A stretch of 39,409 bases of DNA, taken from positions 1 through 39,409 of the forward strand of contig NZ_JAPDOG010000032.1 in assembly GCF_026013545.1 (NCBI RefSeq), written 5' to 3'. A program made the position numbers and the translations under genes. The notes under the pieces were generated by a model. It saw nothing but the letters and a program-made list of their open reading frames with translations, did no database searches and was not told where the DNA came from. Source of the stretch: Defluviimonas salinarum. GTDB taxonomy: Bacteria; Pseudomonadota; Alphaproteobacteria; Rhodobacterales; Rhodobacteraceae. The stretch's first letter is position 1, and each line of letters starts with the position of its first letter. Below are positions 19,560-39,409 of the stretch, piece by piece.

Positions 19560-21560
19560 TTATTCGAACTCCATGATGATCTGGTCCACGGCGAGCGAGT
19601 CGCCGGGGGCCGCGTTGATCTTCGTCACCCGCACCTTCTTCTCGGCGCGGAGCACATTCTCCATCTTCATCGCCTCGATGGTGGCAAGCGCCTGACCCTC
19701 CTGGACCTCGTCGCCCTCGATGACCGCGACCGCGACGAGCTTGCCGGGCATCGGGCAGAGCAGCATCCTCGAGGTGTCCGGCGGCAGCTTCTCGGGCATG
19801 AGCGCGGCAAGCTCGGCGATCCGCGGCGTGTAGATGCGCACGTCCAGGGCCGCGCCGCGTGTCCGGACCCGGAACCCGGCGGTAATCTTGCCGACCTTCA
19901 GCACCAGAGGGGCGCCGTCGACGTCGAGCGTCGCGAGCGGGTCGCCCGGGGTCCAGTCGCTTTCCACCCGGTGAATCGTGCCGTCGCCGAACTCCACAGT
20001 GGCGCCGCCGCGATCCGCGCGGATCGCCACGGGAAAGCGCTGGTTCTGCGCGATCACGACCCAGTCCGTGCCGACGCGGCGCTCGTGGTTGTCCATCCGG
20101 CCCGAGACGCGGGTGCGCCGGATCTCGGCCACCCGGTGCATCGCCGCCGTAGCGGCCACGACGCGGCGCAAAGCCTCCTGCGGCAGGTCGACCCCGGAAA
20201 AGCCGTCGGGATATTCCTCGGCGATGAAGGCCGTCGTCATGTCGCCCGAGATGAACTTGGGATGGTCCATGACGGCGGAAAGGAACGGCAGGTTGTGACC
20301 GATCCCCTCGATCTCGAAACTGTCGAGCGCGACGCGCATATGCTCGATCGCCTGCGCCCGCGTCGGCGCCCAGGTGCAGAGTTTCGCGATCATCGGGTCG
20401 TAATACATCGAGATCTCGCCGCCCTCGTAGACCCCGGTGTCGTTGCGCACGACATGGTCTGCCGTCGCAATCTCGGCCGGGGGACGGTAGCGGCTCAGCC
20501 GCCCGATCGAAGGCAGGAACCCGCGATAGGGATCCTCGGCATAGACGCGGTTCTCGATCGCCCAGCCGTTGATGCCGATATCCTTCTGGCCGAAGGGCAG
20601 CTTCTCGCCGGCGGCGACCCGGATCATCTGTTCGACAAGGTCGACACCGGTGATCAGTTCGGTCACCGGATGCTCGACCTGAAGCCGGGTGTTCATTTCG
20701 AGGAAGTAGAAGTTCCTCTCGCCATCGACGATGAACTCGACCGTGCCGGCCGAGCAGTAGCCCACCGCCTTCGCGAGCGCGACCGCCTGTTCGCCCATCG
20801 CCTTGCGGATCGCGGCATCGAGGAAGGGCGACGGCGCCTCCTCCACGACCTTCTGGTTCCGGCGCTGGATCGAGCATTCGCGTTCGTTCAGATAGACGCA
20901 GTTGCCGTGCGTGTCGCCGAGCACCTGGATTTCGATATGGCGCGGCTTGGTGACGAACTTCTCGATGAAGATGCGGTCGTCGCCGAAAGAGGACGCCGCC
21001 TCGTTCTTCGACGACTGGAACCCCTCTCGGGTCTCCTGGTCGTTCCAGGCGATCCGCATCCCCTTGCCGCCACCGCCGGCAGAGGCCTTGATCATCACCG
21101 GATAGCCGATCTCGCCCGCGATCTTCACCGCCTCGTCGGCATCCCCGATCAGGCCCATGTAGCCCGGAACGGTCGAGACATTCGCCTCCATCGCGATCTT
21201 CTTCGAGGTGATCTTGTCGCCCATCGCCTCGATAGCGCCCTTCGGCGGGCCGATGAAGGCGACGCCTTCCCTCTCCAACGCCTCGGCGAACTTCGCGTTC
21301 TCGCTGAGGAAGCCATAGCCAGGATGGACAGCCTCTGCGCCGGTCTCGCGGATCGCGCGCATCACGTTGTCGATCACGATATAGGACTGGTTCGCCGGCG
21401 GCCGGCCGATACGCACCGCCTCGTCGGCCATGCGGACATGAAGCGCGTCCCTGTCGGCGTCGGAATAGATCGCGACCGTCGCGATGCCGATCTTCCGAGC
21501 GGACTTGATGACCCGGCAGGCGATTTCGCCCCGGTTGGCTATCAATATCTTCCTGAACAT
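19560..21560 (-). CDS. pccA: Propionyl-CoA carboxylase alpha subunit (biotin carboxylase and BCCP)
   Basis: Carboxylates biotin and carries it to PccB. The 666-residue protein has the biotin carboxylase fold (KILIANRGEIACRVIK near the start, ATP-grasp KASAGGGGKGMR, EMNTRLQVEHPVTE). A linker (BT) domain follows, then the BCCP tail with biotinyl-lysine K632 in EAMKMEN. I choose ATG at 21560 because MFRKILIANRG is the usual family start. A GTG at 21576-21578 would add six residues and overlap the pccB stop (GTGA), so translational coupling with pccB is possible. Confidence 0.95.
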   Translation of the reverse strand: MFRKILIANRGEIACRVIKSARKIGIATVAIYSDADRDALHVRMADEAVRIGRPPANQSYIVIDNVMRAIRETGAEAVHPGYGFLSENAKFAEALEREGVAFIGPPKGAIEAMGDKITSKKIAMEANVSTVPGYMGLIGDADEAVKIAGEIGYPVMIKASAGGGGKGMRIAWNDQETREGFQSSKNEAASSFGDDRIFIEKFVTKPRHIEIQVLGDTHGNCVYLNERECSIQRRNQKVVEEAPSPFLDAAIRKAMGEQAVALAKAVGYCSAGTVEFIVDGERNFYFLEMNTRLQVEHPVTELITGVDLVEQMIRVAAGEKLPFGQKDIGINGWAIENRVYAEDPYRGFLPSIGRLSRYRPPAEIATADHVVRNDTGVYEGGEISMYYDPMIAKLCTWAPTRAQAIEHMRVALDSFEIEGIGHNLPFLSAVMDHPKFISGDMTTAFIAEEYPDGFSGVDLPQEALRRVVAATAAMHRVAEIRRTRVSGRMDNHERRVGTDWVVIAQNQRFPVAIRADRGGATVEFGDGTIHRVESDWTPGDPLATLDVDGAPLVLKVGKITAGFRVRTRGAALDVRIYTPRIAELAALMPEKLPPDTSRMLLCPMPGKLVAVAVIEGDEVQEGQALATIEAMKMENVLRAEKKVRVTKINAAPGDSLAVDQIIMEFE

Positions 21561-21574
21561 CTTGCCATCCGATC

Positions 21575-23107
21575 TCACAACGGAATGTTGTCGTGCTTCT
21601 TCCAGGGATTGCTGAGTTTCTTGGTCCGGAGCGAGGCGAAGGCGCGGGCCACCCGCTTGCGGGTTCCGTGCGGCATGATCACCTCGTCGATGAAGCCCTT
21701 CTCGGCGGCGACGAAGGGGTTGGCGAAGCGGGTCTCGTAGTTCTTCGTCCGCTCGGCGATCTTGTCCTTGTCGGCCAGTTCCGAGCGGTAGAGGATCTCG
21801 ACCGCGCCCTTGGCGCCCATCACCGCGATCTCGGCGGTGGGCCAGGCGTAGTTGAAATCGCCGCGCAGGTGCTTGGAGGCCATGACGTCATAGGCCCCGC
21901 CATAGGCCTTGCGGGTGATCACCGTGACCTTCGGCACCGTCGCCTCGCCATAGGCGAAGAGCAGCTTCGCGCCGTGCTTGATCACGCCGCCGTATTCCTG
22001 CCCGGTCCCCGGCAGGAAGCCCGGCACGTCGACGAAGGTCAGGATCGGGATCTCGAAGGCGTCGCAGAACCGCACGAAGCGCGCGGCCTTGCGGCTCGAG
22101 TCGATGTCGAGACAGCCGGCAAGCACCAGCGGCTGGTTGGCGACCACGCCCACGGTCTGGCCCTCGAGCCGGATGAAGCCGGTGATGATGTTGCCCGCGT
22201 AATCCTTCTGGATCTCGTAGAAATCGCCCTCGTCCGCGACCTTCAGGATCAGCTCCTTCATGTCGTAGGGCTGGTTCGGGTTGTCGGGGATCAGCGTGTC
22301 GAGGCTGTCCTCGACCCGCGCCACGTCGTCGAAGAAGGGCCGGGTCGGCGCCTTGTCGCGGTTGTTGAGCGGCAGGAAGTCGACGAGCCGGCGCACCTCG
22401 GCCAGGGCCTCGACGTCGTTCTCGAAGGCGCCGTCGGCGACCGAGGATTTCTTCGTATGGGTGGAGGCGCCGCCCAGTTCCTCGGCGGTGACGATCTCGT
22501 TCGTCACGGTCTTCACCACGTCGGGGCCGGTCACGAACATGTAGGAGGTGTCCTTCACCATGAAGATGAAGTCGGTCATCGCCGGCGAATAGACCGCGCC
22601 GCCGGCGCAGGGCCCCATGATGACCGAGATCTGCGGCACCACCCCGGAAGCCATGATGTTGCGCTGGAACACCTCCGCATAGCCCGCGAGCGAGGCCACG
22701 CCCTCCTGGATCCGCGCGCCGCCGGAATCGTTCAGCCCGATCACCGGGGCGCCGTTCTGCATCGCCATGTCCATGATCTTGCAGATCTTCTGGGCATGGG
22801 TCTCCGAAAGAGAGCCGCCGAAGACGGTGAAGTCCTGGGAAAAGACATAGACCATGCGGCCGTTGATCGTGCCCCAGCCGGTCACGACGCCGTCGCCCGA
22901 GGGCCGGTCGGCCTCCATGCCGAACTCGGTGCAGCGATGCGCCACGAACATGTCAAATTCCTCGAACGAGCCCTCGTCGAGCAGGAGCTCGATGCGCTCG
23001 CGCGCCGTGAGCTTGCCGCGCGCGTGCTGCGCGTCGATCCGGCGCTGGCCGCCGCCGAGATTGGCCTCGTTCCGCCGCGCTTCGAGATCGACGAGAATGT
23101 CCTTCAT
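21575..23107 (-). CDS. pccB: Propionyl-CoA carboxylase beta subunit (carboxyltransferase)
   Basis: Moves the carboxyl group from biotin to propionyl-CoA, giving (S)-methylmalonyl-CoA. The 510-residue carboxyltransferase shows both crotonase-like halves. [12 protein letters not shown] and [18 protein letters not shown] lie in the N-half, and [19 protein letters not shown] and [15 protein letters not shown] in the C-half. The start at 23107 ([12 protein letters not shown]) is chosen because its ATG overlaps the bioY stop as ATGA, whereas the longer frame runs through bioY. A G-rich stretch provides a plausible ribosome site. It is the second gene of the bioY-led operon. Confidence 0.95.
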
Positions 23108-26953: not shown

Positions 26954-27380
26954 CCGGTCTCTCCCCCATTCCTGAGGCCAGGCGCCAGCCATTCTGGCGC
27001 AACCCTCGATCAGAGAATGCCGCAGGAGAGGCCACACATCCGGTCAGCTCACCCCGCGATCATGGGGTCTAGGGTCCGAGGGCTCTGCAGACTAGGTCGA
27101 ACGCGCAGCGGTTCCACCATCTCGACGTAGTGAGCCACAATCCCGTGGGGCAAGGTTTCGTTGCAAGGTTTCGCTGCAAAGTTTCGACACAAGCTATGGA
27201 AATGTCCGTGGTCTTCTGCCTGCGCAGAAGGAATCCAGAGAGTTTCCGCCATTCGGAACTGGTAAAACGCTTGCAGCGAAAATGTAGCTTCGCCAGACTG
27301 AACTTTGTTTGGGGGGGCGGTCGGCCGCATTGGGGGGAACGCAACCAGCCTTTCGGGCATATCCAGGGAACAGCCGCGGC
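26954..27380. other. Upstream region of the cyanophycin genes
   Basis: No gene is supported here. The right-hand part of the IS110 remnant extends to about 27050, after which comes the leader region of cphB. It holds three 13-bp tandem repeats (27151-27189) and an inverted copy of their core at 27269-27282. The base composition is visibly less GC-rich than the metabolic block. A clear promoter could not be assigned by eye. Confidence 0.5.
27151..27189 (+). repeat. Three 13-bp tandem repeats upstream of cphB
   Basis: CAAGGTTTCGTTG, CAAGGTTTCGCTG and CAAAGTTTCGACA follow each other without spacers. The core TTTCGCTGCAA reappears inverted at 27269-27282 (TTGCAGCGAAAA). Such iterated and inverted boxes 100-230 bases before a start codon suit a transcription factor binding array for the cph genes. 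A replication or partition function is less likely with so few units. Confidence 0.6.
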
Positions 27381-28253
27381 ATGTGTCCAGCTCCAGTTAG
27401 TAAAAACCTTCCCCGCGGCTTCATCATCCCGATCGGAGGCGGCGAGGATCGCGTGAAGGAATTGCACATCCACCGCCGCTTCGTTGACCTTTCGGGCGGC
27501 AAGGATGCCAATATCGTTGTCATCCCGACGGCATCGGAACTCGAGACGACGGGAGCGGATTACAACCGGATTTTCTGTGATCTCGGCGCCGCCGAGGTTG
27601 ACTTCCTGCCGATCAGCCGACGCGCTGATTGCGAAAACCCGCGCTATCTCGACATGCTTGACAAGGCATCTGGTATCTTTCTGACAGGTGGCAACCAGTT
27701 GCGCCTCTCGACCATCCTCGGCGGCACTGGAATTGCCCAGAAGATCCGGCGCCGCAACGCCGCTGGCGTCGTCGTCGCGGGCACGTCGGCCGGCGCTTCG
27801 ATCATGTCGGAACATATGATAGCGGGGGGCGCCAGCAATTCGGCCCCCACCGAAGGCGCAGTGAACCTCGCGCCGGGCCTCGGGCTGACGAACGCGGTGA
27901 TCATCGACCAGCACTTCACCGAGCGGAACCGGCTCGGCCGACTGCTGGCCGCTTCATCCTACAATCCGTTCCTGATCGGCCTCGGCATCGACGAGGATAC
28001 AGCTGCCTTCATCGGACCCGATGGCGTCCTGGAAGTAGTCGGCTCAGGTACGGTCACCGTTGTCGATGCTTCGAGCCTTTCTCATTCATCGATGTGGGAC
28101 GCCTCGCGCGGTCAGGCGCTGACGCTGCTCGACCTGAAGGTACATGTGATGGGGGAAGGTTGCCGCTACGACCTGGTGGGACGGCACGCCTATCCACCGG
28201 ATGAACACGCAGCGTTCTGCGCGCTGCCAAACCAGAAGGTCACGACCAGCTGA
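27381..28253 (+). CDS. cphB: Cyanophycinase
   Basis: Exo-type serine peptidase of family S51 that cuts cyanophycin (multi-L-arginyl-poly-L-aspartate) to beta-Asp-Arg dipeptides. The 290-residue cytosolic protein starts MCPAPVSKNLPRGFIIPIGG. It carries the GGNQ motif (103-106), the nucleophile S136 in AGTSAGASIMSEHMI, and DQHFTERNRLGRL, all typical of CphB. ATG 27381 is chosen over the open frame from 27309 because the family starts here and AGGGAA lies upstream. It is followed 28 bases later by cphA, so storage and retrieval are encoded together. Confidence 0.93.
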   Translation: MCPAPVSKNLPRGFIIPIGGGEDRVKELHIHRRFVDLSGGKDANIVVIPTASELETTGADYNRIFCDLGAAEVDFLPISRRADCENPRYLDMLDKASGIFLTGGNQLRLSTILGGTGIAQKIRRRNAAGVVVAGTSAGASIMSEHMIAGGASNSAPTEGAVNLAPGLGLTNAVIIDQHFTERNRLGRLLAASSYNPFLIGLGIDEDTAAFIGPDGVLEVVGSGTVTVVDASSLSHSSMWDASRGQALTLLDLKVHVMGEGCRYDLVGRHAYPPDEHAAFCALPNQKVTTS

Positions 28254-28281
28254 CCGCGCGATAAAGGGGAGGAGATCCGCA

Positions 28282-31086
28282 ATGAAAATCGTTTCGACGA
28301 ACGTGTTTGTCGGCCCGAACGTGTGGGCGGGATTTCCCGTCATTCGCTACGTCGTCGACCTTGGTATCCTGGAGGACTGGCCTTCGGCAAGGATCGGCGA
28401 GGACTGGATCAATGCGCTCGTCGCGGCGTTGCCGGGATTGCAAGAGCATGGCTGCTCCTACCGCGAACCGGGTGGCTTCATCCGACGCTTGCGCGAAGGC
28501 GAAGGCACCTGGCTCGGCCATATCGCCGAACATGTCGCGCTGGAGATACAGGGCGTCGCGGGATCCGAGGTCACGTTCGGCCGCACCCGCTCGACCGGCG
28601 TGCCGGGGCAGTACAATCTCGTCTACCAATACCACCAGCGCGATGTCGGGCTGGAAGCCGGACAGTTGGCGATCCGGCTTCTGATGCATCTCCTGCCCGA
28701 TGAACTGAAGGCGCAGGTCGAGTATGAATTCGACCCCGAATTCAACTTCCCGGACGAATTGAAAAGCTTCGTCCTGATGGCGCAGCGCAAGGAATTCGGG
28801 CCCTCGACCGGATCGCTCGTCAAGGCGGCCGAGGATCGTGACATCCCGTGGATCCGGCTCAACAACAACTCGCTCGTGCAGTTCGGCCACGGCAAGTTCC
28901 AGCAACGCATCCAGGCGACCATCACGAGCGAGACCAAGCATATCGCTGTGGAGATATCCTGCGACAAGGAAGATACCCACAACATGCTGAACGACCTCGG
29001 CCTGCCGGTGCCGCAACAGCGGTTGGTCTATTCGCCGACCCAGGCCGTCCGGGCGGCGCGACGCATTGGCTTTCCGGTCGTGGTCAAGCCGCTCGACGGC
29101 AATCACGGTCGCGGCGTTTCGATCAACCTGACCGAAGAGGCGCAGGTGGAAACCGCCTTTGACGAGGCCAAGGCGCACTCCAAGAGCCGCGGTATCCTCG
29201 TCGAGAGTTTTGTCACCGGCATGGATCACCGGATGCTGGTGGTCAACGGCGAGTTGGTGGCGGTGGCCAAGCGCGTGCCCGGCCATGTCATCGGCGACGG
29301 CAAGCACACGATCGCGGAGCTTGTCGAGATCGTGAACTCCGACCCGCGCCGGGGCATCGGGCACGAGAAGGTGTTGACCAATCTCGAACTCGACAATCAG
29401 GCAGAACGGCTGATGGCTGATGCCGGGCATACCGCCGAAACCGTCCTTCCGGCAGGCGAGACGTTTTACCTGCGCTCTACCGCGAACCTGTCGACCGGCG
29501 GGACCGCGATCGACATGACCGATGTCTGCCACCCCGACAACAGGGACATGGCGGAGCGGACGATCAAGTCGGTGGGGCTCGACGTCGGTGGCGTCGATTT
29601 TCTCACGCAAGACATCACCAAGAGTTACAAGGATATCGGCGGCGCGATTGTCGAGGTGAACGCGGCGCCCGGATTCCGGATGCATGTCGCGCCGTCCGAG
29701 GGCAAGGCGCGCGACGTGGCCGGCAAGGTCATCGACATGCTCTTCCCGAAAGGCAGGCGAACGCGGATTCCGATCGGCGCCATCACTGGTACGAACGGCA
29801 AGACGACCACCTCGCGCATGCTTGCCCATATCATGAAATCCTCTGGCAAGATCGTCGGCATGACCTCGACCGATGGCGTCTATGTCGACGGCAAGCTCAC
29901 CGTGAAGGGCGACATGACCGGCCCCGCCTCGGCGCAAATGGTCTTGCGTGACCCCTCGGTCGATTTTGCGGTGATGGAAACCGCTCGCGGTGGCCTCGTG
30001 CGCTCCGGCCTCGGCTATCAGCGCTGTGATGTCTCGGCCTGTCTGAATGTCGCCGCCGACCACCTCGGAATGGGCGGGATCGACACGCTCGAACAGCTTG
30101 CCGTGGTGAAGCGCGTCGTCGTTGAAACCGCGACCGATACGGTCGTCCTGAACGCCGACGATCTTCTTTGCCTGCGCATGGCCGATTTCTGCAAGGCCAC
30201 GCATATCTGCTACGTGACGACGAACTCCGACCATCCGCTGGTGAAGGAGCACATCCAGGCCGGGGGCCGTGCCGTGGTGCTTGAAAAAGCCATGAACGGC
30301 GACATGATCACGATCTACGCCAACGGTCTTCACATGCCGGTTCTCTGGTCGCATCTCATCCCGGCCACGCTGGAGGGCAAGGCGCTCTACAACGTGCAGA
30401 ACGCCATGTTCGCTTGCGCCATGGCCTATGCGTTCGGGCTTGATCTCGACAATATCCGCCACGGGCTCAGGACCTTCGATACCTCTTTCTTCCAGGTGCC
30501 GGGTCGGACGAACGTCTTCGACGAACACCCGTTCAAGGTCATCCTCGACTATGGTCACAATCCCGCCGCCATCGCCGCCATGGCGGGCCTCGCGGACCGG
30601 CTCGACGTCAAGGGGCGCAGGCTTGTCGTCTCGGCCATGCCGGGTGATCGCCGCGACGAGGATATCGTGGCGGCGGCACAGGCGCTTGCCGGGCATTTCG
30701 ACCACTACTTCCTGAAACCGGACGATGACCGCCGGGGACGCGGGCCGATGGAAGTGCCCGAGATGATCCGCGACGAGCTTTTAAAGGGGGGTGTCGAAGG
30801 CAATCGCATCACGCTCGTCGAAAGCGAAACAAAAGCCGTCGACTTGGCCTTGCAGGCGGCGCAGCCGGGCGATCTCCTCGTCGTGTTCGCCGACGAACTG
30901 GCGCGTTCGTGGAAGCAGATCATCTACTTCAAGAAGGCAGAGCGCGAGGCCATCGTCACCGCCAAGCCGATCCGCGTCGAGCGCCCCGCCCCCGAATTCG
31001 AGGAACTGATGTCCGGGGCGGATCAACTGATCCGCGACGAACGCGGCGTGCGCCTCGCGCGGGTCGAGACCGAGGAGTCGGACTGA
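28282..31086 (+). CDS. cphA: Cyanophycin synthetase
   Basis: Makes cyanophycin by alternately adding Asp to the backbone and Arg to each side chain using ATP. The 934-residue protein has an N-terminal domain (1-160), an ATP-grasp domain (about 170-490; KPLDGNHGRGV 269-279) and a Mur-ligase domain with P-loop GTNGKTTT (503-510). METARGGLVRSGLGY, NVAADHLG and DYGHNPAA follow within it. Length and order match CphA1. ATG 28282 follows a strong GGGGAGGAG; the open frame back to 28201 overlaps cphB. The gene sits in a cphB-cphA-Mur ligase trio flanked by IS debris, which suggests acquisition by transfer. Confidence 0.95.
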   Translation: MKIVSTNVFVGPNVWAGFPVIRYVVDLGILEDWPSARIGEDWINALVAALPGLQEHGCSYREPGGFIRRLREGEGTWLGHIAEHVALEIQGVAGSEVTFGRTRSTGVPGQYNLVYQYHQRDVGLEAGQLAIRLLMHLLPDELKAQVEYEFDPEFNFPDELKSFVLMAQRKEFGPSTGSLVKAAEDRDIPWIRLNNNSLVQFGHGKFQQRIQATITSETKHIAVEISCDKEDTHNMLNDLGLPVPQQRLVYSPTQAVRAARRIGFPVVVKPLDGNHGRGVSINLTEEAQVETAFDEAKAHSKSRGILVESFVTGMDHRMLVVNGELVAVAKRVPGHVIGDGKHTIAELVEIVNSDPRRGIGHEKVLTNLELDNQAERLMADAGHTAETVLPAGETFYLRSTANLSTGGTAIDMTDVCHPDNRDMAERTIKSVGLDVGGVDFLTQDITKSYKDIGGAIVEVNAAPGFRMHVAPSEGKARDVAGKVIDMLFPKGRRTRIPIGAITGTNGKTTTSRMLAHIMKSSGKIVGMTSTDGVYVDGKLTVKGDMTGPASAQMVLRDPSVDFAVMETARGGLVRSGLGYQRCDVSACLNVAADHLGMGGIDTLEQLAVVKRVVVETATDTVVLNADDLLCLRMADFCKATHICYVTTNSDHPLVKEHIQAGGRAVVLEKAMNGDMITIYANGLHMPVLWSHLIPATLEGKALYNVQNAMFACAMAYAFGLDLDNIRHGLRTFDTSFFQVPGRTNVFDEHPFKVILDYGHNPAAIAAMAGLADRLDVKGRRLVVSAMPGDRRDEDIVAAAQALAGHFDHYFLKPDDDRRGRGPMEVPEMIRDELLKGGVEGNRITLVESETKAVDLALQAAQPGDLLVVFADELARSWKQIIYFKKAEREAIVTAKPIRVERPAPEFEELMSGADQLIRDERGVRLARVETEESD

Positions 31087-31098
31087 ACGGGGCGCCAG

Positions 31099-32841
31099 GT
31101 GACACATTCCGATGCTTTGCAGGACCTCTTGGAGATCCCGGTGCCCGATCATCCAGCGCTGGTTCTGGATGGCTGCCGCAGGCTGCTTGGACCGAACCTT
31201 TACGGGCCGGAACCGGGCGCTGTTGGCGATGGTCTGGTCTCCGGGTTCGATCCGCATGCAATGCTGCAAGCCTGGGTCCATCACGCTCGTGGCCTACTCG
31301 ACGGGCTTGGCTGGACTTCCACGCAAATCCGCACGCGGCCCTTTGATGGCGGTGCGAGCCTCTTCTTTCCCGCCGCGGTGGACCAGCTCTTTACCGCCGC
31401 CTTTATCGTCGAGGCGGCGTGGTACTACACGGCGACCGGCCTGTTGCAGATCGATCAGATCCCAATCGAGCGTATGATCGCGGATCTGCGCCGCGTCAGC
31501 AAAGCCGAGGAGAACCCCGCACTGGTCGCCCTCGTCGCGGAAGCCGCACGACGCGGGGTCGACCGGCTGCTTGACGATGATGCTCTGACGCTCGGGCATG
31601 GCGCGGGATCAGCGACTTGGAAAAGTGGCGATCTTCCGGGATCCCCCGACTGGTCGCATCTTCATGACATTCCAATTGCGCTTGTCACCGGAACGAATGG
31701 CAAGACGACGACGACGCGGCTCATTACGGCGATGGGCAAGGCGGCCGGGCTGGTGTCCGGCCTGTCCTCCACCGAATTCGTGAAGGTCGGCGACGATATC
31801 CTGGACAAGGGTGATTATTCCGGCCCCGCGGGTGCAAGACTTCTGTTGCGCGACACGCGACTGGAGCTTGGCGTGCTCGAGGTCGCGCGGGGCGGCATCC
31901 TGCGGCGCGGGGTGCCGGTGACGCGGGCTCGGGCGGCTGTCGTGACGAATATCGCGGCCGATCACCTCGGGCAGTACGGCATCAACACGGTGTCCGAACT
32001 CGCCCATGTCAAACTGGCCGTACACCGGGCACTCGCGCCGCACGGCGTTCTGATCCTGAATGCGGACGATCCCCACGTTGTTGAGGCCGCCCAAAAGGCT
32101 GTCGCGCCAAAAGCGTGGTTCTCACTCAGCACCGATAATGCCGAGGTCCGGACCGCCCGTTCGCGCCGCGCCCCCTGCGCCTGGCTCGAAAACGGCCTGA
32201 TCATGCTGTCAGACGGTCATACAGAAACGGCGTTGATTGCCGTCGAGGACGTGCCCCTGACCCTGGGCGGCGCGGCGCGCTACAACATCGAGAACGTGCT
32301 TGCCGCGGCGCTTGCTGCGCGCGCCCTCGACATTCCCGACGGAGCGATTTCCGCGACCTTGTCGCGGTTCAGAAGCGATCCCACAGACAACCCCGGCCGG
32401 GCCAACGAATTTGCGGTGCGTGGTGCGCGGATCTTCGTCGACTTCGCGCACAATCCTCACTCGATTGCGGCCGTGGCGTCGGCGATGGCCGTGCTGCCAG
32501 CGCGGCGGAGATTCGTTCTTCTGTCTCACGCGGGCGACCGGTCCGACGCGGATATCCGCGCCCTGACGGCGGGTGCCCTGGCTTTCGATCCGGACTACGT
32601 CGTGGCCGCGGAGAACCCGAAATATCTGCGGGGCCGACGGCCGGGGGAGGTTTCGGGGATCATTCGCCAGGCAAGCCTCGACCTCGGCCTTCCGGAGGAT
32701 CGGATCCTGATGGCTGACAGCCCTTCGGATGGTGCCCGTCAAATCTTGCAGCGCGTGAAGGTCGACGATCTCGCATTGCTTCTCGTACATGATGAAAGAC
32801 CAGAAATCATCGAGATGCTACGACGCGACGCCTTACGGTAG
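31099..32841 (+). CDS. Mur ligase-family protein paralogous to the CphA C-terminal half
   Basis: Probable ATP-dependent amide ligase linked to cyanophycin metabolism; its exact substrate is unknown. The 580-residue protein has a roughly 190-residue N-terminal domain I do not recognise, then a Mur-ligase core. The core has P-loop GTNGKTTTT (198-206), EVARGGILRRGV (261-272), NIAADHLGQYG (284-294) and DFAHNPHS. These align motif by motif with CphA (ETARGGLVRSGL, NVAADHLGMGG, DYGHNPAA), but the ATP-grasp domain is absent. The start is GTG, 12 bases after the cphA stop, in one operon. It is not cyanobacterial CphA2, which keeps ATP-grasp. It could complete, branch or prime the polymer, or act on a dipeptide. 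Confidence 0.85.
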   Translation: MTHSDALQDLLEIPVPDHPALVLDGCRRLLGPNLYGPEPGAVGDGLVSGFDPHAMLQAWVHHARGLLDGLGWTSTQIRTRPFDGGASLFFPAAVDQLFTAAFIVEAAWYYTATGLLQIDQIPIERMIADLRRVSKAEENPALVALVAEAARRGVDRLLDDDALTLGHGAGSATWKSGDLPGSPDWSHLHDIPIALVTGTNGKTTTTRLITAMGKAAGLVSGLSSTEFVKVGDDILDKGDYSGPAGARLLLRDTRLELGVLEVARGGILRRGVPVTRARAAVVTNIAADHLGQYGINTVSELAHVKLAVHRALAPHGVLILNADDPHVVEAAQKAVAPKAWFSLSTDNAEVRTARSRRAPCAWLENGLIMLSDGHTETALIAVEDVPLTLGGAARYNIENVLAAALAARALDIPDGAISATLSRFRSDPTDNPGRANEFAVRGARIFVDFAHNPHSIAAVASAMAVLPARRRFVLLSHAGDRSDADIRALTAGALAFDPDYVVAAENPKYLRGRRPGEVSGIIRQASLDLGLPEDRILMADSPSDGARQILQRVKVDDLALLLVHDERPEIIEMLRRDALR

Positions 32842-32871: not shown

Positions 32872-33023
32872 GGTGTCAGACGAATTCGAACCACTCTCAG
32901 CTTGGACAGTGACGGCGTTCCTTACACCGCGTAGAGACCGCGCCGCTCGGCAAGAGCGGCGGCGCGGTCGGCCTTGAATAGGGGCGGCTGGAGAGGCCGA
33001 GCTCGGAGTTGAAGCGGTTGGTT
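32872..33023 (-). pseudogene. IS6-type element remnant: end plus transposase C-terminus
   Basis: The minus strand encodes a degenerate C-terminus, NRFNSELGLSSRPY then, after a one-base shift, FKADRAAALAERRGLYAV and a TAA at 32922-32924. This parallels FNHFNLERSFYSRVNFKK and RAAALAEWRGLGAS of the copy at 38834. The end repeat GGTGTCAGAC at 32872 extends for 21 bases with 20 identical to the stretch at 38784-38804. Only the 3' end of the element remains. Confidence 0.75.
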
Positions 33024-33143
33024 ACGGGGGCCTGTCAATCGGCACGCAATCCTGCCCCGGATTGGAGTACGCCCCTGCGGGTGGACCAGTCGGATCGGTT
33101 GAATTGACTCCCCTTGGTCTTGCCCCTGTCTTTGATCCGGGCT

Positions 33144-34009
33144 TCATGCGACCTTCCGGGCTGGTTTCAGCCGGGCCGCAAGGGCGCTCGGCGTCAAGTT
33201 TCCGAGTGCCGAATGCGGCCGCTGGTCGTTGTAGTCGATCCTCCAGTCATTGATCCGCCGGCGGGCATCATCCATCGACAGGAACCATGACGCGTTCAGG
33301 CATTCCTGACGCAGGCGGCTGTTGAACGCCTCGATGAAGGCATTGTCCGTGGGCTTTCCGGGGCGGGAGAAGTCGAGCTCGACCTAGTTCAGGTAGGCCC
33401 AATGGTCGAGCAGCCGCCCGGCGATCTCGGGGCCGTTGTCCACGCGTATGCTCCGCGGCTTGCCTCTGGTCCTGACGATTCGGTCGAGCTCCTCGATGAC
33501 CTGGTAGGCACGGAAGTTTGTCCTCGCACAGGTCGCGAGAGCCTCTCTCGTGTGGCAGTCGACGATGGTCAGGATCCGGAACCGCCGACCGTCGAAGAGC
33601 TTGTCCGACTGAAGTCCATGGCCCAGACATCGTTCATGGCATCGGCCTCGGAGCGCGCCGACCGATAGCGGCAGGCGCGCCGCCGCCTGAGGCTCCGGGT
33701 TCGGATCGACGGGCCTTCCTCGCAATAGAGCCGGCAGGTCCGCTTATGGATCACGTTCCACCCCTCCCGTTACAGCAGGACATGCAGGCGCCTGTAGCCG
33801 TAGCGGACCCGGCTTTCGGCCAGCTCCTTAAGCCGCATCCGCAGTTCCACCGCCGGATCGCGCCGTGACCGGTATCTGTGGGAAGACCGTCCGAAGCCCA
33901 TGGCCCGGCACGCCCGACGTTCCGACAGCGCGAAGACCTCCGGGTAATGACGGACGACTTCGCGGTGACAGACAGGCTTCACCACTTTTTCTCAGGGCAT
34001 CCTGCAGCA
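33144..34009 (-). pseudogene. IS3-family transposase orfB with multiple lesions
   Basis: Pieces in two frames rebuild an IS3 orfB: VKPVCHREVVRHYPEVFALS (near 33980), RYGYRRLHVLL, ACRYRSARSEADAMNDVWAMDF, SDKLFDGRRFRILTIVDCHT, GKPRSIRVDNGPE, VELDFSRPGKPTDNAFIEAF, and RPHSALGNLTPSALA at the 3' end. Lesions are a TAA at 33770-33772 (where CAA is expected), a frameshift near 33605 and a TAG at 33384-33386 (where CAG is expected). A run of five A near 33987 may be the old orfA/orfB slippery site. orfA is cut off by the next element. Confidence 0.85.
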
Positions 34010-34380
34010 TGTCCGCCGTCAGATAAAGTGGGCGTCCTGACGTGATGGGCCTTTGGAGGATCTGGCTCATCGGTTTCGATCCTATGCGGCGTGCTGTTGA
34101 TTGAGCAAGCGGCGCCGCTTCATGGTCAGCTCCTTGATCTTCCTCCTCTCGCTGAGAACGTCGTTGGCGCGGCCGAAGTAGACGTCGGCCGGGGTGAGGT
34201 TGCCGAGGCTCTCGTGGTAACGGCGATGGTTGTAATGCTCGACGAAGGCGTCGATGGCCTGTTCGAGCGCGCCCGGCAGGTAGTCGTTCTCGAGCAGGAT
34301 GCGGTTCTTCAGCGTCTGGTGCCACCGCTCGATCTTGCCCTGGGTCTGGGGGTGGTTCGGCGCACCACGGACATGCTTCA
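34010..34380 (-). pseudogene. Second IS3-type transposase, C-terminal remnant with right end
   Basis: The frame ending at 34082 encodes MKHVRGAPNHPQTQGKIERW, HQTLKNRILLENDYLPGALE and HYNHRRYHESLGNLTPADVY, the last third of an IS3-family DDE transposase (the GKIERWHQTLK glutamate region). Upstream of about 34380 the frame meets unrelated DNA, an integrase tail on the other strand. A likely element end, TGTCCGCCGTCAG, lies at 34010. It differs from the orfB next door and appears inserted into it. Confidence 0.8.
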
Positions 34381-34585
34381 TGTCCTGACCGCGACGAGTA
34401 TCGCCGAATGCGACCCCGCCCATGCCGGCATCACCCGCGACGTCCTCGGACACGCCACCCTGGACATGGCTTACCGGCACTACAACCGGGCGCAGCCACT
34501 GCACGCGCTCAACAGGTATCAGCAGGTCGCGGACCGGTTACGGGAACGCGCAAGCGAGAGGGAGCGCAGGGCGAGGGTGCGGTAG
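34379..34585 (+). pseudogene. Tyrosine recombinase (phage integrase family), C-terminal fragment
   Basis: The plus strand encodes LTATSIAECDPAHAGITRDV, then LGHATLDMAYRHYNRAQPLH, ending at TAG 34583-34585. The LGH...YRHY stretch matches the end of tyrosine recombinase catalytic domains: the second conserved His and the nucleophilic Tyr are present, while the Arg-bearing upstream box is missing. The fragment starts exactly where the IS3-type remnant ends, so the IS truncated the integrase. It hints at a former integrative element near here. Confidence 0.7.
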
Positions 34586-34814
34586 CGGCGGCGCGTTCGC
34601 TGAGCGATCGCGGGCGACGCGGAGCCTGACGGGTCGGCTTCTACGTGGCTTCTAGGCGACAGCAGGCAATTGCTGCGGTGCGAGATTTTTCTGCGAGACG
34701 CTGTGCACCAGATAGGCGCACACGGCCCTTAGCGGACCTTCGACTTGCGAGTAGTGGAGGCCGAAAGCAACTCGAAGTCCACGTGTATCGCCTCCCCGAG
34801 CGCCCTTCGGAAAT
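34586..34814. other. Intergenic stretch after integrase tail
   Basis: No gene is supported. The last 100 bases follow the stop of the substrate-binding protein gene and would be its 3' untranslated region. No strong terminator hairpin was found; a short palindrome around GCAATTGC (34666-34673) is the only marked element. Confidence 0.4.
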
Positions 34815-35816
34815 TCAGTTCGATACGATATCTGCAATCTGTAGAAAGGCAAATGGCGGGATCCGATTGAGGTCTCTCGCTACATCCATGTTGACCACAT
34901 ATGCGAAATCGGACGCCCGCAGGATAGGCAGGTCGCCCGGCACGGCTCCATCACGCAAGATGGCAAGAGCCTGATCAGCAGCCAGTTTCCCGACATCGTA
35001 GTATCGGGCAGCAATAGACAGAAGAGCACGATTTTCCCGAACGAGGCTCTCATAGGGACTGACAATCGCGATGCCATTCTCAACGGCGGACGAGGTGTAA
35101 AGATCACCGTTGAAGCGAAGGAACGAGCTCGATCCGAGATACATCCAGCGCACGCCGAGTTCCCGAAACTCGGCCATACGGTCCGGAATCAGCGCTGGGT
35201 CCGGCACGCCTGGATTGCCTGGATCAAGTTCCAGAGCAACAAACTCGATTCCAAGGTCGGGCAGCAGGGTCTCCAGCTCTTCTTTCTTGATCACGGAGTT
35301 GCGCTCATTGGCATGGTAAAGAAGTCCGAGTTTTTTGAAGCTGGGATCGTATTGCCGGATGATCTCGATATTCACGGCTTCCGGGACGCGATTGAACGTG
35401 CCGGCCACGTTTTCCCGGCCGCTGCGCTCAAAGCTTTCGGCGATGCGCGTGCCGAATGGATCAGCAACCACCGTGAAGACCACTGGAATATCGTCAAGAA
35501 ACCGAGGGTCCCCGACCTCGTCGAGCGTGCCGATAATCCCGAGAGTCACACTTGTCCCGAACGTGACAACCAGATCGACATGATCATTTCGCGCGGTTTC
35601 CACCACGCCCCGCAAAAGGCTCTTGTCCTGAGCAATATCAACACTTCGAACCTGTGCATCGAAACCGCTTTCAGCAATAGCATCCTTCAAACCCTCGCAA
35701 AGGTGCTCGCACCCCTCGTACCAGACACCAAGGATCGTCTTGGTTTCGGCAGCCGCCTCGAACGTGGACGAAAAGATCAGCGTAACAACGGCAACACATG
35801 CACTTACGAGCTTCAT
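34815..35816 (-). CDS. ABC_sub_bind-type periplasmic substrate-binding protein
   Basis: The 333-residue protein has a signal peptide (MKLVSACVAVVTLIFSS, cleavage likely after A23 of FEAAA). Two alpha/beta lobes follow, as in the ABC_sub_bind (TrpX/YtrF-like, PF04392) family: DLVVTFGTSVTLGI, then IPVVFTVVADPFGTRI and WMYLGSSSFLRFNGD. ATG 35816 is chosen for AGGAG 8 bases upstream and because the signal peptide begins there. No ABC permease or ATPase gene is adjacent; instead it lies 42 bases downstream of a sensor-MFS gene in the same direction. It may feed ligand-state information to that protein rather than to an ABC importer. The ligand is unknown. Confidence 0.85.
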   Translation of the reverse strand: MKLVSACVAVVTLIFSSTFEAAAETKTILGVWYEGCEHLCEGLKDAIAESGFDAQVRSVDIAQDKSLLRGVVETARNDHVDLVVTFGTSVTLGIIGTLDEVGDPRFLDDIPVVFTVVADPFGTRIAESFERSGRENVAGTFNRVPEAVNIEIIRQYDPSFKKLGLLYHANERNSVIKKEELETLLPDLGIEFVALELDPGNPGVPDPALIPDRMAEFRELGVRWMYLGSSSFLRFNGDLYTSSAVENGIAIVSPYESLVRENRALLSIAARYYDVGKLAADQALAILRDGAVPGDLPILRASDFAYVVNMDVARDLNRIPPFAFLQIADIVSN

Positions 35817-35858
35817 GGAATCGCTCCTATCGACAATCAAGATAGCTGACCGTCCAGC

Positions 35859-38660
35859 TTACCTTCTTGTCAACAAATGCCTGAAATTCAGGGCGCCAAA
35901 GACGACGCCACCTGTCATCGTCCATAGGGCGACCGCGAGAATCGCAGCGGTATATCCTGCCACGCCGGCAAGCCCGGCGATAAGGACTAGGCCGACGATG
36001 CTTCCAAGCCTTTCGCCGGTGCGCAGAACGCCCAGAACTGCGGTCGGTCCGATCTCGGCGAGGTCGGTCTCGGCCACCAGCAACGCGATGGAAACCTGCG
36101 CACCCCGTATCATGGCGCTACCGGCACCCGTGGCGACCATCGCCAGAGCCATCGAAAGCTGTGACGGGTGGAGGGCTGCCGGCAGCAGCGCGACTCCGCA
36201 AACACCAGCGGCGCCGACACAAAGGAGAGCGTGAGAGCCCTTCAGGTGCTGCGATAGCCGACCCGCCAGCGGGCCTACTGCCATCAAAGTCAGGAAGAAC
36301 AGCATCAGGATCCGACCTATCTCGGCGGCGGATGCCCCCTGCGCATCGAGCGTGAGCGCAACGAGATAGGAGATGAAAGCTTGCAGAACGACAGCAGAAG
36401 GAATGACGATTCCCAGTATCAAGACGATTAGGCGCGGGTGCCTGAGCGCTGTCCACTTCGTCCGGACCGTTCGAATTGCGTGCGGATCATGGCGTTTGCC
36501 GACGTCCGGTGCGATCAGCCATGTGCTGAGCAGGGCGGAGGCCGCTATCAGACCGGCGCTGACCAGAAATACGTTGGCCGGGCCGAGGCGGTCGGCGAGG
36601 ACGCCACCCAGAGCGACGCCGGTGAACACGCCGCCGAAGAGAACCAGCGTGAAGACACCCAGCAAGCTATCGCGGTTCGATTTCGACGCGACACTCAAAA
36701 CATAGTCCTGCGCCGCGAGAGTCACAATCGCGTAGCCGAAACCGGTAACGGTGCGCCAGAAGATGATCTCTTGCGCGGTTGCGGCCGCGAAAAGCCCCAG
36801 ATGGGCTATTGCCGTCGGGATGGATGCCGCAACAAACAGCCGTCTGACGCCGAACCGTTCCACGAGCACCCGCGCATAGGGCGACATCATAACGATTGCC
36901 AGCAGATAGCCGGCGAGCGGCAGCGCGATCAACACGGCCTGGTCGAGCCAGGGCCACAGGTTTTCCGCTGCGCGCGTGTAAATCGGGAGAAAGGCCAATG
37001 GAAGTTCATCCGCTGCAGCAAAGAGGACAAGTGCCAGCCGAATGTCCCCAAACGACGAGGATTCGAGCAGGCGCGGCGCACCAGAGGTCAATCCGAACCG
37101 GTCGCCAATACGCCGCAGGGCGGCCTGCCGTTGTCCACCGGCCACTTCGACCGCCTCGCTAAAGGAAGCGTGAAGGACGATGGCGCGTTCTGACAATGTC
37201 CTCAAAATGATCCCGATAGTGCCTTGGCCCTTCGCGATCACTCTGCGCGAGAAATTCCCGGCTGCTTGCATCGCACTCAGCCTTTGCACTTGTTCGAGGC
37301 CCTCGGCGAGGGCACGTCCCGAGAGCAGAAGCATGACTTCGCTGGCCAGCAGCATGGTAACCAGCAGGATCACGACTGCATCAAGGAACACGCTGTGAAA
37401 CCGTTTGGTGATCAGCCGCGGATCGATGTCGATGACCACATACGCGACCTCTTCTCCATCGTGGACGATTGGATGGCTGCGAACATCCCGTCGTTCCCGC
37501 GGCGGCGCGAGATACGGGTCGATGCGGTTCCCGGCTTCGATCACAATCCGTCCCGTGGCGACGGCGATGTAGGCGACCTCAGGCAACCTCTTGAGCATGT
37601 CACCGAAGAATTGGTCAGCGCCTACGATCTCGTTCAGCGCTATGCCGCTGTCGAGCGCGCGCTGGACGTTCTCGCTGACGACGTTGCCGATCAGGTCTGT
37701 GCGCGCAGCCAGCTCCGGCTCGATGGATCGTGTCACGGCTCGGGTTGCGACGGTGCCTAGCATGATGGCGGAGATGACGAGAAGCAACACCGTGATCGGA
37801 AGAAGGCGCGCCATGATCACGGCCTTGAGCCTGCCCGCGTTCAGGTTCCCCTCATCCCCATCGTCTTTAGACGACCTGTCCTCGGACTGCAAATGAGCAC
37901 CATCGGGTTGCGCAATGGCCAACTGCAATTTTCGATACGCGGCGTCCGCGTCCTGCAGGTTTTGTCCCAGTCGGAGCAGTTCATGATTGAGACTGCCCGC
38001 CTTCGCCTCCGCTAACCCGGCATCATAGGATTGCCCGGCGCGGGTGGCTTCGAAGATGGTTCGCAAGTCGGCCAGTCTGCGCCTAGGACGGTCGAGAACG
38101 AGGTAGATCAGAACGAAAGCCAAGGCCGATGTCGCCAAAAGTATGACAAGGGCGCTGCGCAGCGTGATCCGCGCGATGTTTCGGGAGGCGGCATCCAACT
38201 TGTCATGCGGATACTCCACGACGACCGCACCCGAAGGCGGGGCGCCCTCTGCCGGGCGGATCGAGAAACCGCTATAAATCAAATCGCTGGTTTCGTGCCC
38301 CCAGACATCTTGATCGGCAAGCCGCATTGCCGTGAGCACATTGTCGTCAATTGTTCCTGGTTTCGATCCGGTCGTGTGGGCCACGATGCCCGTAGGATTG
38401 ATCGCGTGAACAGCGACAATGCTTGGATCAATGGCGATGCCGCGCGCCAGGATGGCATCGCCATCGCGGAGCATCGAGATTGGCAGGCCCAGGTCAAGGA
38501 TCGGACGAAACGTCTCTGCTGTCGTTTGCGCTATCACGGCGACCCGTTGCCGGAGAAGCTCGGAATAGATGGCATCGTGCTGAAGGATCAGGAGAAGCGA
38601 CAGCAAGGCTTGCGTGATTGCAATGACTAAGGTCGTGACAATCCAGCCCTTGAATCGCAT
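35859..38660 (-). CDS. Sensor-permease fusion: two extracytoplasmic sensor modules plus MFS transporter
   Basis: The 933-residue protein has an unusual order. Helix 1 (6-27), an extracytoplasmic domain (28-166), helix 2 (167-189) and a HAMP-like segment (190-250) come first. Then helix 3 (281-306), a second extracytoplasmic domain (307-422), helix 4 (424-447) and a clearer HAMP-like segment (447-505; AAGNFSRRV) follow. Last is a complete major facilitator domain (about 538-930, 11-12 helices) with an A-type loop PYARVLVERFGVRR. No kinase, cyclase or receiver domain is present. The sensors probably gate or tune the permease directly. The ATG at 38660 has AGGCGGG upstream. The substrate is not predictable; export or uptake cannot be told from sequence. 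Confidence 0.85.
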   Translation of the reverse strand: MRFKGWIVTTLVIAITQALLSLLLILQHDAIYSELLRQRVAVIAQTTAETFRPILDLGLPISMLRDGDAILARGIAIDPSIVAVHAINPTGIVAHTTGSKPGTIDDNVLTAMRLADQDVWGHETSDLIYSGFSIRPAEGAPPSGAVVVEYPHDKLDAASRNIARITLRSALVILLATSALAFVLIYLVLDRPRRRLADLRTIFEATRAGQSYDAGLAEAKAGSLNHELLRLGQNLQDADAAYRKLQLAIAQPDGAHLQSEDRSSKDDGDEGNLNAGRLKAVIMARLLPITVLLLVISAIMLGTVATRAVTRSIEPELAARTDLIGNVVSENVQRALDSGIALNEIVGADQFFGDMLKRLPEVAYIAVATGRIVIEAGNRIDPYLAPPRERRDVRSHPIVHDGEEVAYVVIDIDPRLITKRFHSVFLDAVVILLVTMLLASEVMLLLSGRALAEGLEQVQRLSAMQAAGNFSRRVIAKGQGTIGIILRTLSERAIVLHASFSEAVEVAGGQRQAALRRIGDRFGLTSGAPRLLESSSFGDIRLALVLFAAADELPLAFLPIYTRAAENLWPWLDQAVLIALPLAGYLLAIVMMSPYARVLVERFGVRRLFVAASIPTAIAHLGLFAAATAQEIIFWRTVTGFGYAIVTLAAQDYVLSVASKSNRDSLLGVFTLVLFGGVFTGVALGGVLADRLGPANVFLVSAGLIAASALLSTWLIAPDVGKRHDPHAIRTVRTKWTALRHPRLIVLILGIVIPSAVVLQAFISYLVALTLDAQGASAAEIGRILMLFFLTLMAVGPLAGRLSQHLKGSHALLCVGAAGVCGVALLPAALHPSQLSMALAMVATGAGSAMIRGAQVSIALLVAETDLAEIGPTAVLGVLRTGERLGSIVGLVLIAGLAGVAGYTAAILAVALWTMTGGVVFGALNFRHLLTRR

Positions 38661-38833
38661 CGATGACGGCCCGCCTACTCACGAAGTCGACTTGAGGTGC
38701 CACGCAAGTAGGCCCCACAACAACCGTGCGACGAGTCTGCTTGAAACCTCAAGGAAATTCGCAAACGCAAGGGTCCAAGTGGTGGTGTCAGACCAATTCG
38801 AACCCGTCTCCACAAGGGCAGGATTGCTGTCCC
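38661..38833. promoter_or_regulatory. Upstream region of sensor-MFS gene, with IS6-type end
   Basis: The 5' flank of the minus-strand sensor-MFS gene runs into the 3' end of an IS6-type element. The end repeat GGTGTCAGAC starts at 38784 and leaves about 123 bases of native upstream DNA. Any native promoter must lie there, or the IS may have supplied one. No clear promoter was assigned. Confidence 0.4.
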
Positions 38834-39296
38834 TTATGACGCGCCGAGGCCGCGCCACTCGGCGAGAGCGGCGGCGCGGTTCTTCTTGAAATTTACCCTC
38901 GAGTAGAAGCTGCGCTCCAAGTTGAAATGGTTGAAGACGGAGGCGTGGACGGCGGCGAACATCTGCAGACTTCGCATACGCCGAAACCGCTGCATCGCCC
39001 GTTCTCGTCGTCGGAACGGCAGGTGCGAATTCTCCGCCCGATTGTTGAGCCAGCGACCAGTTGCCTGGCGGTCGGCCGCACCGACCTCCTTCAATGCGGC
39101 GCTATAGGAGCGCAGCTTGTCGGTGACGAAAATGTGCGGACGACCGTAGCGCTTCATTGGTTTCTTGAGGAATTTCAATGCCGCCTTCTTGTCCCGCGTC
39201 TTCGTCACGAAGCTCTCGAGAACCTCGCCCTCATGATCGACGGCCCGCCAGAGGTAGTGCCGCTCGCCGTTGATCTTCACAAACATCTCGTCGGGC
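38784..39296 (-). mobile_element. IS6-type insertion sequence, 5'-truncated
   Basis: The element runs from its 3' end repeat (GGTGTCAGAC at 38784) through the transposase stop at 38834 up to about 39296. There it is cut by the left end of another copy on the opposite strand. The missing part would encode roughly the first third of the transposase. Confidence 0.75.
38834..39296 (-). pseudogene. IS6-type DDE transposase lacking its N-terminus
   Basis: About 150 residues remain: DEMFVKINGERHYLWRAVDH (first catalytic Asp), VTDKLRSYSAALKEVG (second Asp) and NNRAENSHLPFRRRERAMQR (catalytic Glu), closing with RAAALAEWRGLGAS. The DDE core is complete but the N-terminal helix-turn-helix region is absent upstream of 39296. 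The sequence there changes to the flank of the plus-strand copy. Probably inactive. Confidence 0.85.
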
Positions 39297-39409
39297 GGTG
39301 TCAGAGGAACCTGGCTTGCGGCGAGGCAGGGCGCCGACTAGCGCCGCTTGATGTCGAAACCTGACCCGTTCAAATACTTCAAGACGAGCCGCGAGATCAT
39401 CCGCCTGGC
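39297..39409 (+). mobile_element. Start of a second IS6-type element
   Basis: A left end GGTGTCAGAGGAACC (39297-39311) shares its first nine bases with the end repeats at 32872 and 38784. It is followed 39 bases later by a transposase start. The element continues beyond the window. Confidence 0.7.
39351..39409 (+). CDS. IS6-type transposase, N-terminal fragment at window edge
   Basis: ATG at 39351 opens a frame of 19 full codons, MSKPDPFKYFKTSREIIRL, the usual start of this IS6 transposase group (short N-terminus, then the helix-turn-helix). It runs off the right edge of the window. It is head-to-head with the truncated minus-strand copy, whose missing N-terminus would have read the same way. 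Confidence 0.8.
   Translation, partial: MSKPDPFKYFKTSREIIRL

Follow-up and report, generated by a model that had tools for sequence, protein, structure and literature searches.

Why an MFS permease should carry two receptor-like hairpins at its N-terminus, and what those hairpins act on, is the question raised by a gene of Defluviimonas salinarum. The gene lies in a stretch of DNA of 39,409 nucleotides that was analysed as a whole (hereafter, the window). A preliminary description had claimed a reading frame of 933 residues at positions 35859–38660, and the frame was recovered at exactly these coordinates; it runs on the minus strand, which had gone unstated, and the plus-strand reading of the interval contains several stops in the same frame. 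Next to it on the same strand is a gene for a solute-binding protein, absent from that description, and together they form a two-gene operon.

The hairpin-permease chain and its relatives

From N- to C-terminus the chain comprises two hairpins, made up of four helices and two extracytoplasmic domains, followed by a 12-helix MFS domain. Hydropathy analysis places the sensor helices at residues 7–25, 171–189, 286–304 and 428–446, and the twelve MFS helices between residues 542 and 910 (35931..37037, minus strand). The MFS helices at 632, 833 and 858 pass the lower threshold only, and this threshold also flags residues 69–87 within the first extracytoplasmic domain. A Pfam search returned MFS_1 (PF07690) at residues 576–863 (E 4.6e-27, 95.3 bits against a cut-off of 33.4), which places the permease half in that family, and no other family at E ≤ 0.01. 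The earlier remark that the chain has no output enzyme domain agrees with this search, in which none was detected. When the whole chain was compared with PDB sequences, 17 chains were returned, all MFS-type transporters by name, with a best E-value of 0.006.

The order of sensor and permease is found again in other genomes, with 53 such proteins in 51 of 55 loci. Three parts recur among the homologues, namely a hairpin protein (A), a hairpin joined to an MFS domain (B) and a binding protein (C); the window gene encodes A and B as a single chain. The loci come from three genome sets, each of which includes the window's genome: 101 genomes of relatives (25 matched at E ≤ 1e-3) and 385 of the class (73 at E ≤ 1e-15), many of the matches in both being to the MFS part only, and 398 of the phylum (12 at E ≤ 1e-30). 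From these, 11, 28 and 8 regions were taken as a subset of the listed matches, and one further region of the window's own genome, three from named genomes and four plasmid records were added. Two of the loci hold the MFS only (L092 and L123) and two the sensor pair only (L093 and L102). Three relatives were confirmed by a peptide-pattern genome scan and the remainder by profile searches. The module profiles with which the loci were examined had been made from the fetched proteins. L103, a repeat of L043, was excluded from the counts, and the near-duplicates L044/L101, L098/L119, L077/L078 and L080/L081 are counted without being independent events.

Both hairpins are present in one chain in 23 of the 53 B-type proteins, the window protein included. 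The other 30 have one hairpin, and in all but one of these (29/30) A is a separate gene directly upstream of B; the exception, L045, is on a contig of 4.6 kb. One module of L085 is broken into two profile matches, and this protein was assigned to the split group by hand. The pattern of homologues all split into separate genes, which the preliminary description had linked to a fusion artefact, is thus not the one observed. On the tree the window sequence forms a group with L033, L036, L034 and L035 (support 100), most of the surrounding relatives being split. L037 too is a single chain, in contrast to L004 and L041, its closest kin, which are split. Five changes between the two states are counted, at least four of them forced by starred branches, and the count is a soft one, the tree having been made by a quick method with a program warning of long branches. 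The one-chain form recurs across the tree, whether through fusion or through fission, between which the count cannot distinguish.

Copies over the full length are found at 84, 65 and 51% identity in three named records, so that the one-chain arrangement is not due to chance. A chance fusion or an assembly artefact, with no functional link between the parts, would fit the location of the operon at a contig end and between two transposase genes (34082–34504, of rve_3 type, and 38834–39286, of IS240 type). Against it stand the full-length orthologues in L033, L034, L035 and L036 and the further one-chain forms elsewhere on the tree. An artefact is very improbable, and chance fusion was rejected on the grounds of the orthologues.

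Sensor modules and the linker to the permease

By profile comparison the two hairpins are versions of one homologous module, as the module-1 and module-2 profiles (24 and 20 sequences, respectively) match in hhalign with 99.1% probability and an E-value of 9e-19. The module-1 set consists of the window sequence and 23 separate A genes. The extracytoplasmic domains of module 1 (residues 28–166; 38163..38579, minus strand) and module 2 (residues 305–427; 37380..37748, minus strand) are both predicted to be distantly Cache-like, the second of sCache_3 type, in each case by way of relatives only. Cache and HAMP profiles of Pfam gave no match in the sensor domains of the window protein itself. Three of the 24 module-1 sequences matched dCache_1 and one matched sCache_3_2 at E ≤ 0.01, and the best PDB match of the module-1 profile, to the Cache domain of CitA, is weak (E 0.07). 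The module-2 sequences were matched at E ≤ 0.1, in a result that does not include cut-off scores, by HAMP (9/20), sCache_3_2 (7/20) and dCache_1 (2/20). The family check proposed earlier for the two domains gave no Cache match in the window protein and gave matches in some relatives (dCache_1 in 3/24 module-1 and sCache_3_2 in 7/20 module-2 sequences).

The preliminary description had placed two sensor units, each with a HAMP-like part, ahead of the permease. The pair of hairpins stands; a HAMP domain in the first unit is not supported, as none of the 24 module-1 sequences matches one at E ≤ 0.01. The cytoplasmic linker after module 1 (residues 190–285; 37806..38093, minus strand) is 96 residues long by hydropathy, and no HAMP was detected in it by profile. 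In module 2, transmembrane helix 4 (residues 428–446; 37323..37379, minus strand), defined by hydropathy and alignment, bears Glu441, which is kept in 43 of the 53 B-type proteins. It leads into a HAMP-like linker (residues 447–497; 37170..37322, minus strand), to which the HAMP of a relative aligns in a profile alignment. The last 60 or so positions of the module-2 profile also match PDB entries, best of all a histidine kinase-Gcn4p chain (E 7e-9) and then Aer2 (E 1e-4), stretches that we read as HAMP; AF1503, which is named as HAMP, matches the profile at E 0.02. From the profile matches in relatives, the HAMP of module 2 is likely and that of module 1 unsupported.

In 13 of the 53 proteins helices 2 and 3 begin just 31–47 residues apart. 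With this spacing and no detectable HAMP in module 1, HAMP signalling between the hairpins cannot be general. The division into short and long linkers was set at 60 residues, which is arbitrary: the window protein and L033–L037 have values of 113–120, and L046, L116, L117 and L124 reach just 63–75.

The permease and the neighbouring binding protein

The residues kept in the permease half are those that a working MFS protein should show: Arg636 (52/53), Gly685 (53/53), Arg880 (49/53), Glu883 (47/53) and Arg884 (47/53). We take Arg636 to be the motif B arginine and the glycines of TM5 to be motif C, in which the proline position holds proline in 15 of 53 proteins and valine in the window. In PDB and NCBIfam the MFS half comes closest, though weakly in every case, to DHA-type drug:proton antiporters such as VMAT2 and EmrB. 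With these it shares an arginine in TM4 and a motif-C-like glycine pattern. It differs from them in some 530 additional N-terminal residues and in the conserved binding-protein gene, and its 12 helices set it apart from EmrB, which has 14. Efflux models lead the NCBIfam matches (TIGR00880 at E ≤ 1e-5 in 34 of 40 members), and importer models match too, with the aromatic acid symporter TIGR00895 in 21 of 40. The window protein does not reach the DHA and EmrB cut-offs (TIGR00880, 37.9 of 131 bits; TIGR00711, 32.5 of 230.2 bits). As efflux models are matched most often, export is slightly favoured over import for the predicted permease.

A profile of five divergent sensor-MFS paralogues still aligns with the main family across sensor and MFS. 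Such paralogues were seen in L077 (9581–11473) and L078 (4448–6343), both with a cyclase gene beside them, in L079 (8637–10664), with SpoIIE beside it, and in L087 (9570–11078) and L088 (1528–3702). In the cyclase-linked paralogues of L077 and L078 the positions of Arg880, Glu883 and Arg884 are gapped in the alignment.

The efflux-type matches would also suit an exporter under feedback control, in which the MFS exports a product made by the cell while C and the Cache pair measure that product outside. ATP-grasp ligase genes in 9 of the 51 loci, seven of them of the short-linker class, point the same way, as do L043, with a gene resembling glutamate-cysteine ligase, and L099, with a TauD gene. 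The ATP-grasp genes lie in L080, L081, L094–L098, L119 and L120, and those of L080 and L096, the only two checked with Pfam, are of the D-Ala-D-Ala-ligase type. No ligase gene was seen beside the window operon, and an ATP-grasp match at 19560–21887, more than 12 kb away, was excluded from the neighbour counts. A cyanophycin set identified by Pfam at 27309–32841 (peptidase S51, a cyanophycin synthase-like protein and a second Mur-ligase-type protein) is cut off from the operon by transposase genes. Feedback-controlled export is a decidedly unlikely explanation of the window set.

The binding-protein gene occupies 34815..35816 on the minus strand, in a reading frame that opens from TTG at 35840. 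With the ATG at 35816 as start codon, the gene would begin 42 bases past the stop of the MFS gene and its product would have, by eye, a Sec-type signal sequence at the N-terminus. The protein belongs to the periplasmic solute-binding family PF04392 (E 3.5e-21, 76.2 bits against a cut-off of 25.9), and its PDB matches are 3lkv, 3lft and 6hni. There are just two PF04392 proteins in the window's genome, one adjoining each of its two sensor-MFS genes. Throughout the family C adjoins B on the same strand in 39 of 53 cases (adjacency being taken as the same strand and a domain gap of at most 350 bases). It lies elsewhere in the fetched locus in 13, on the opposite strand in seven of these, and is absent from one, L057, which is at a contig end. 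In L036 (7847–9992) a tandem pair of binding-protein genes follows the one-chain gene. A plasmid of Nitratidesulfovibrio vulgaris DP4 (Thermodesulfobacteriota) has overlapping genes annotated as an ABC transporter substrate binding protein and an MFS transporter, and by profile this pair carries the same modules as the window set.

The association is also seen in the reverse direction. At E ≤ 1e-50, and with at most five candidates from each genome being scored, the C profile found 25 proteins in 24 of the 385 genomes, and a sensor-module gene is present in the same locus in all 25, a result favoured by the derivation of the profile from sensor-MFS loci. Nineteen of these loci include the MFS, five have a sensor pair and, within the stretch fetched, no MFS (G133, G250, G345, G423 and G110), and in G127 the MFS gene sits on another contig. 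Judging by these five, the set does not require the MFS. Sensor pairs with C, and no MFS in the fetched stretch, were seen in L093 (4044–6123) and L102 (904–3010), both with adjoining BatD genes, and in L126 (4959–7056), L127 (118–2200) and L125 (4020–6148).

Three solved PF04392 relatives bind tyrosine, phenylalanine and tryptophan in the account given in passages of PMC6816091, which suggests that an aromatic amino acid or a relative of one may be the ligand of C. TrpX and CD0873, of the same Pfam family as C, are described together with ABC transporters. Among the reading frames of 33000–39409, the last position being the contig end, no ABC permease or ATPase gene was recognised by eye, four of the frames having been checked with Pfam.

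A transport-type binding protein of this kind makes a TRAP-like importer a serious alternative, all the more as L092 has two beside a bare MFS. C would deliver the substrate, the Cache hairpins of A and B would serve as a docking platform and the MFS would import, with A, B and C corresponding to Q, M and P. The aromatic ligands of the solved relatives speak for such an importer, and C-type proteins adjoining a bare MFS fit substrate delivery better. In L092 (2184–5995) the bare MFS of the family is accompanied by two divergently placed PF04392-type proteins and no sensor module. A and B, moreover, are either split or in one chain, as are the small membrane subunit Q and the M subunit of TRAP systems (PMC8276074, in part). 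TRAP and TTT systems resemble the window set in combining a secondary-type permease with a binding protein, and differ from it in the families of both. Of DctM, DctQ and DctP none was found with Pfam, as above the cut-offs the chain has MFS_1 only and C has ABC_sub_bind only. We know of no sensor domains in a TRAP small subunit. Efflux models outnumber importer models among the matches of the MFS half, the same module is attached to SpoIIE in L080, an attachment that a docking platform would not call for, and C also accompanies sensor pairs whose fetched surroundings lack an MFS. On balance a TRAP-like importer is unlikely.

Signalling enzymes and a proposed mechanism

Genes for signalling enzymes are found at several of the related loci. 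Among the 51 fetched with neighbours, a SpoIIE phosphatase is present in 14, a cyclase (Guanylate_cyc) in three and a histidine kinase in six, the last count not being taken as evidence because kinases are common and a base rate is lacking. A control for SpoIIE covered 42 genomes at E ≤ 1e-10, with G066 and the named records excluded; some of the 42 are close kin and eight have no SpoIIE. SpoIIE was found at 70 places. Sixteen of these, each in a different genome, are no more than 10 kb from a sensor-MFS gene, against 0.33 expected at random. In eight genomes the SpoIIE near the sensor-MFS gene is the only one.

A sensor module with HAMP of this family is fused to SpoIIE itself in L080 and likewise, by profile, in L081. 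As the same module and HAMP precede SpoIIE in these two, the comparison supports the prediction that the MFS occupies the output position held by SpoIIE in such relatives. At L046 (2958–6392) a Cache-Cache-MFS chain carries a fused HATPase_c_2 domain at its N-terminus, and the locus has in addition a free HATPase_c_2 gene and a SpoIIE gene; we assume the HATPase_c_2 to be of the anti-sigma type. The adjacent C, the split A and B genes and the enzymes next door at other loci make this a multi-component set.

The enzymes raise the possibility that the MFS no longer transports: it would act as a sensor, or would stabilise a receptor complex with SpoIIE, a cyclase or a kinase as its signalling target. 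The SpoIIE association in 16 of 42 genomes, the HATPase_c_2 fusion of L046 and the divergent sensor-MFS paralogues adjoining SpoIIE or a cyclase would all fit this, and there are precedents for transporter-based receptors in the SLC5/STAC histidine kinases and the Amt kinase of Kuenenia (PMC9100948 and PMC8534201, in part). These also resemble the window chain in having transporter and signalling parts in one polypeptide. In them, however, the transporter is the input and the enzyme the output, whereas the window chain has its sensors at the input end and a permease at the output end. The main family, furthermore, keeps the MFS core residues, and no SpoIIE, cyclase or kinase was found by profile in the 39 kb of the window; a partner may lie beyond the end of the contig, which is 749 bases upstream of the gene. 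None was found by profile within the fetched stretches of L033–L037 either, and the one SpoIIE of the window's genome is on a different contig. We consider a non-transporting receptor improbable.

The explanation we tentatively favour, a little short of an even chance, is that of a transporter controlled by its binding protein, in which C acts on the Cache pair, the attached permease is the output and transport is under control of the ligand. In LuxPQ and HptSA a binding protein is reported to act on a tandem Cache/PDC sensor (PMC8534201, in part). Those systems resemble the window set in pairing a periplasmic binding protein with a tandem Cache/PDC membrane sensor, and differ in that their output is a histidine kinase where the window chain ends in an MFS permease; Pfam detected no kinase domain in that chain. 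The interaction of binding protein and sensor is reported for them; contact of C with the Cache pair would be its counterpart in the window set. By this analogy the simplest account of A, B and C would be a receptor of the LuxPQ/HptSA type with a permease in place of the kinase. The conserved gene set, the recurring one-chain and split forms, the SpoIIE association, the MFS at the output position and the efflux-model matches speak for this explanation. Against it weigh the lack of Cache and HAMP matches in the sensor domains of the window protein, the short-linker proteins together with a first module in which HAMP is not detectable, the C loci with a sensor pair and no MFS in the fetched stretch, the bare MFS of L092 and the matches to importer models.

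In such a transporter, secreted C would bind a small molecule, perhaps an aromatic amino acid or something related to one, and would act, with or without this ligand, on the paired Cache-like hairpins. These would belong to two proteins, A and B, in most relatives and form a heterodimer; in the window protein a single chain would unite the two halves and fix the pair, which would explain why the sensors look tandem. The change would then travel through helices 2 and 4, Glu441 and the HAMP-like linker of module 2, and the MFS that follows this linker would be opened, closed or biased. Where a relative has a Cache-HAMP-SpoIIE phosphatase or a cyclase encoded nearby, this ligand would probably set a cytoplasmic signal as well.

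The open-access literature matches listed include no description of a Cache-HAMP-MFS protein and none of an MFS working with a binding protein, which is weak evidence of absence; a word search of the main text of a Cache survey (PMC4822843) gave no instance of MFS, transporter or permease. That C, a heterodimeric or single-chain Cache receptor and a secondary transporter as output constitute a new multi-component system, with related systems wired to SpoIIE, is a possibility that we put forward with some doubt.

If true, the set would be a direct case of receptor-gated secondary transport and, to our knowledge, the first MFS coupled to a binding protein. The families that use solute-binding proteins are given as ABC, TRAP and TTT transporters in passages of a survey of these proteins (PMC9602780), a list that would grow by one with the MFS set. 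The set also provides a testable example in which a Cache/HAMP signal would act on a permease, and it links permeases of this type with SpoIIE phosphatases across many genomes.
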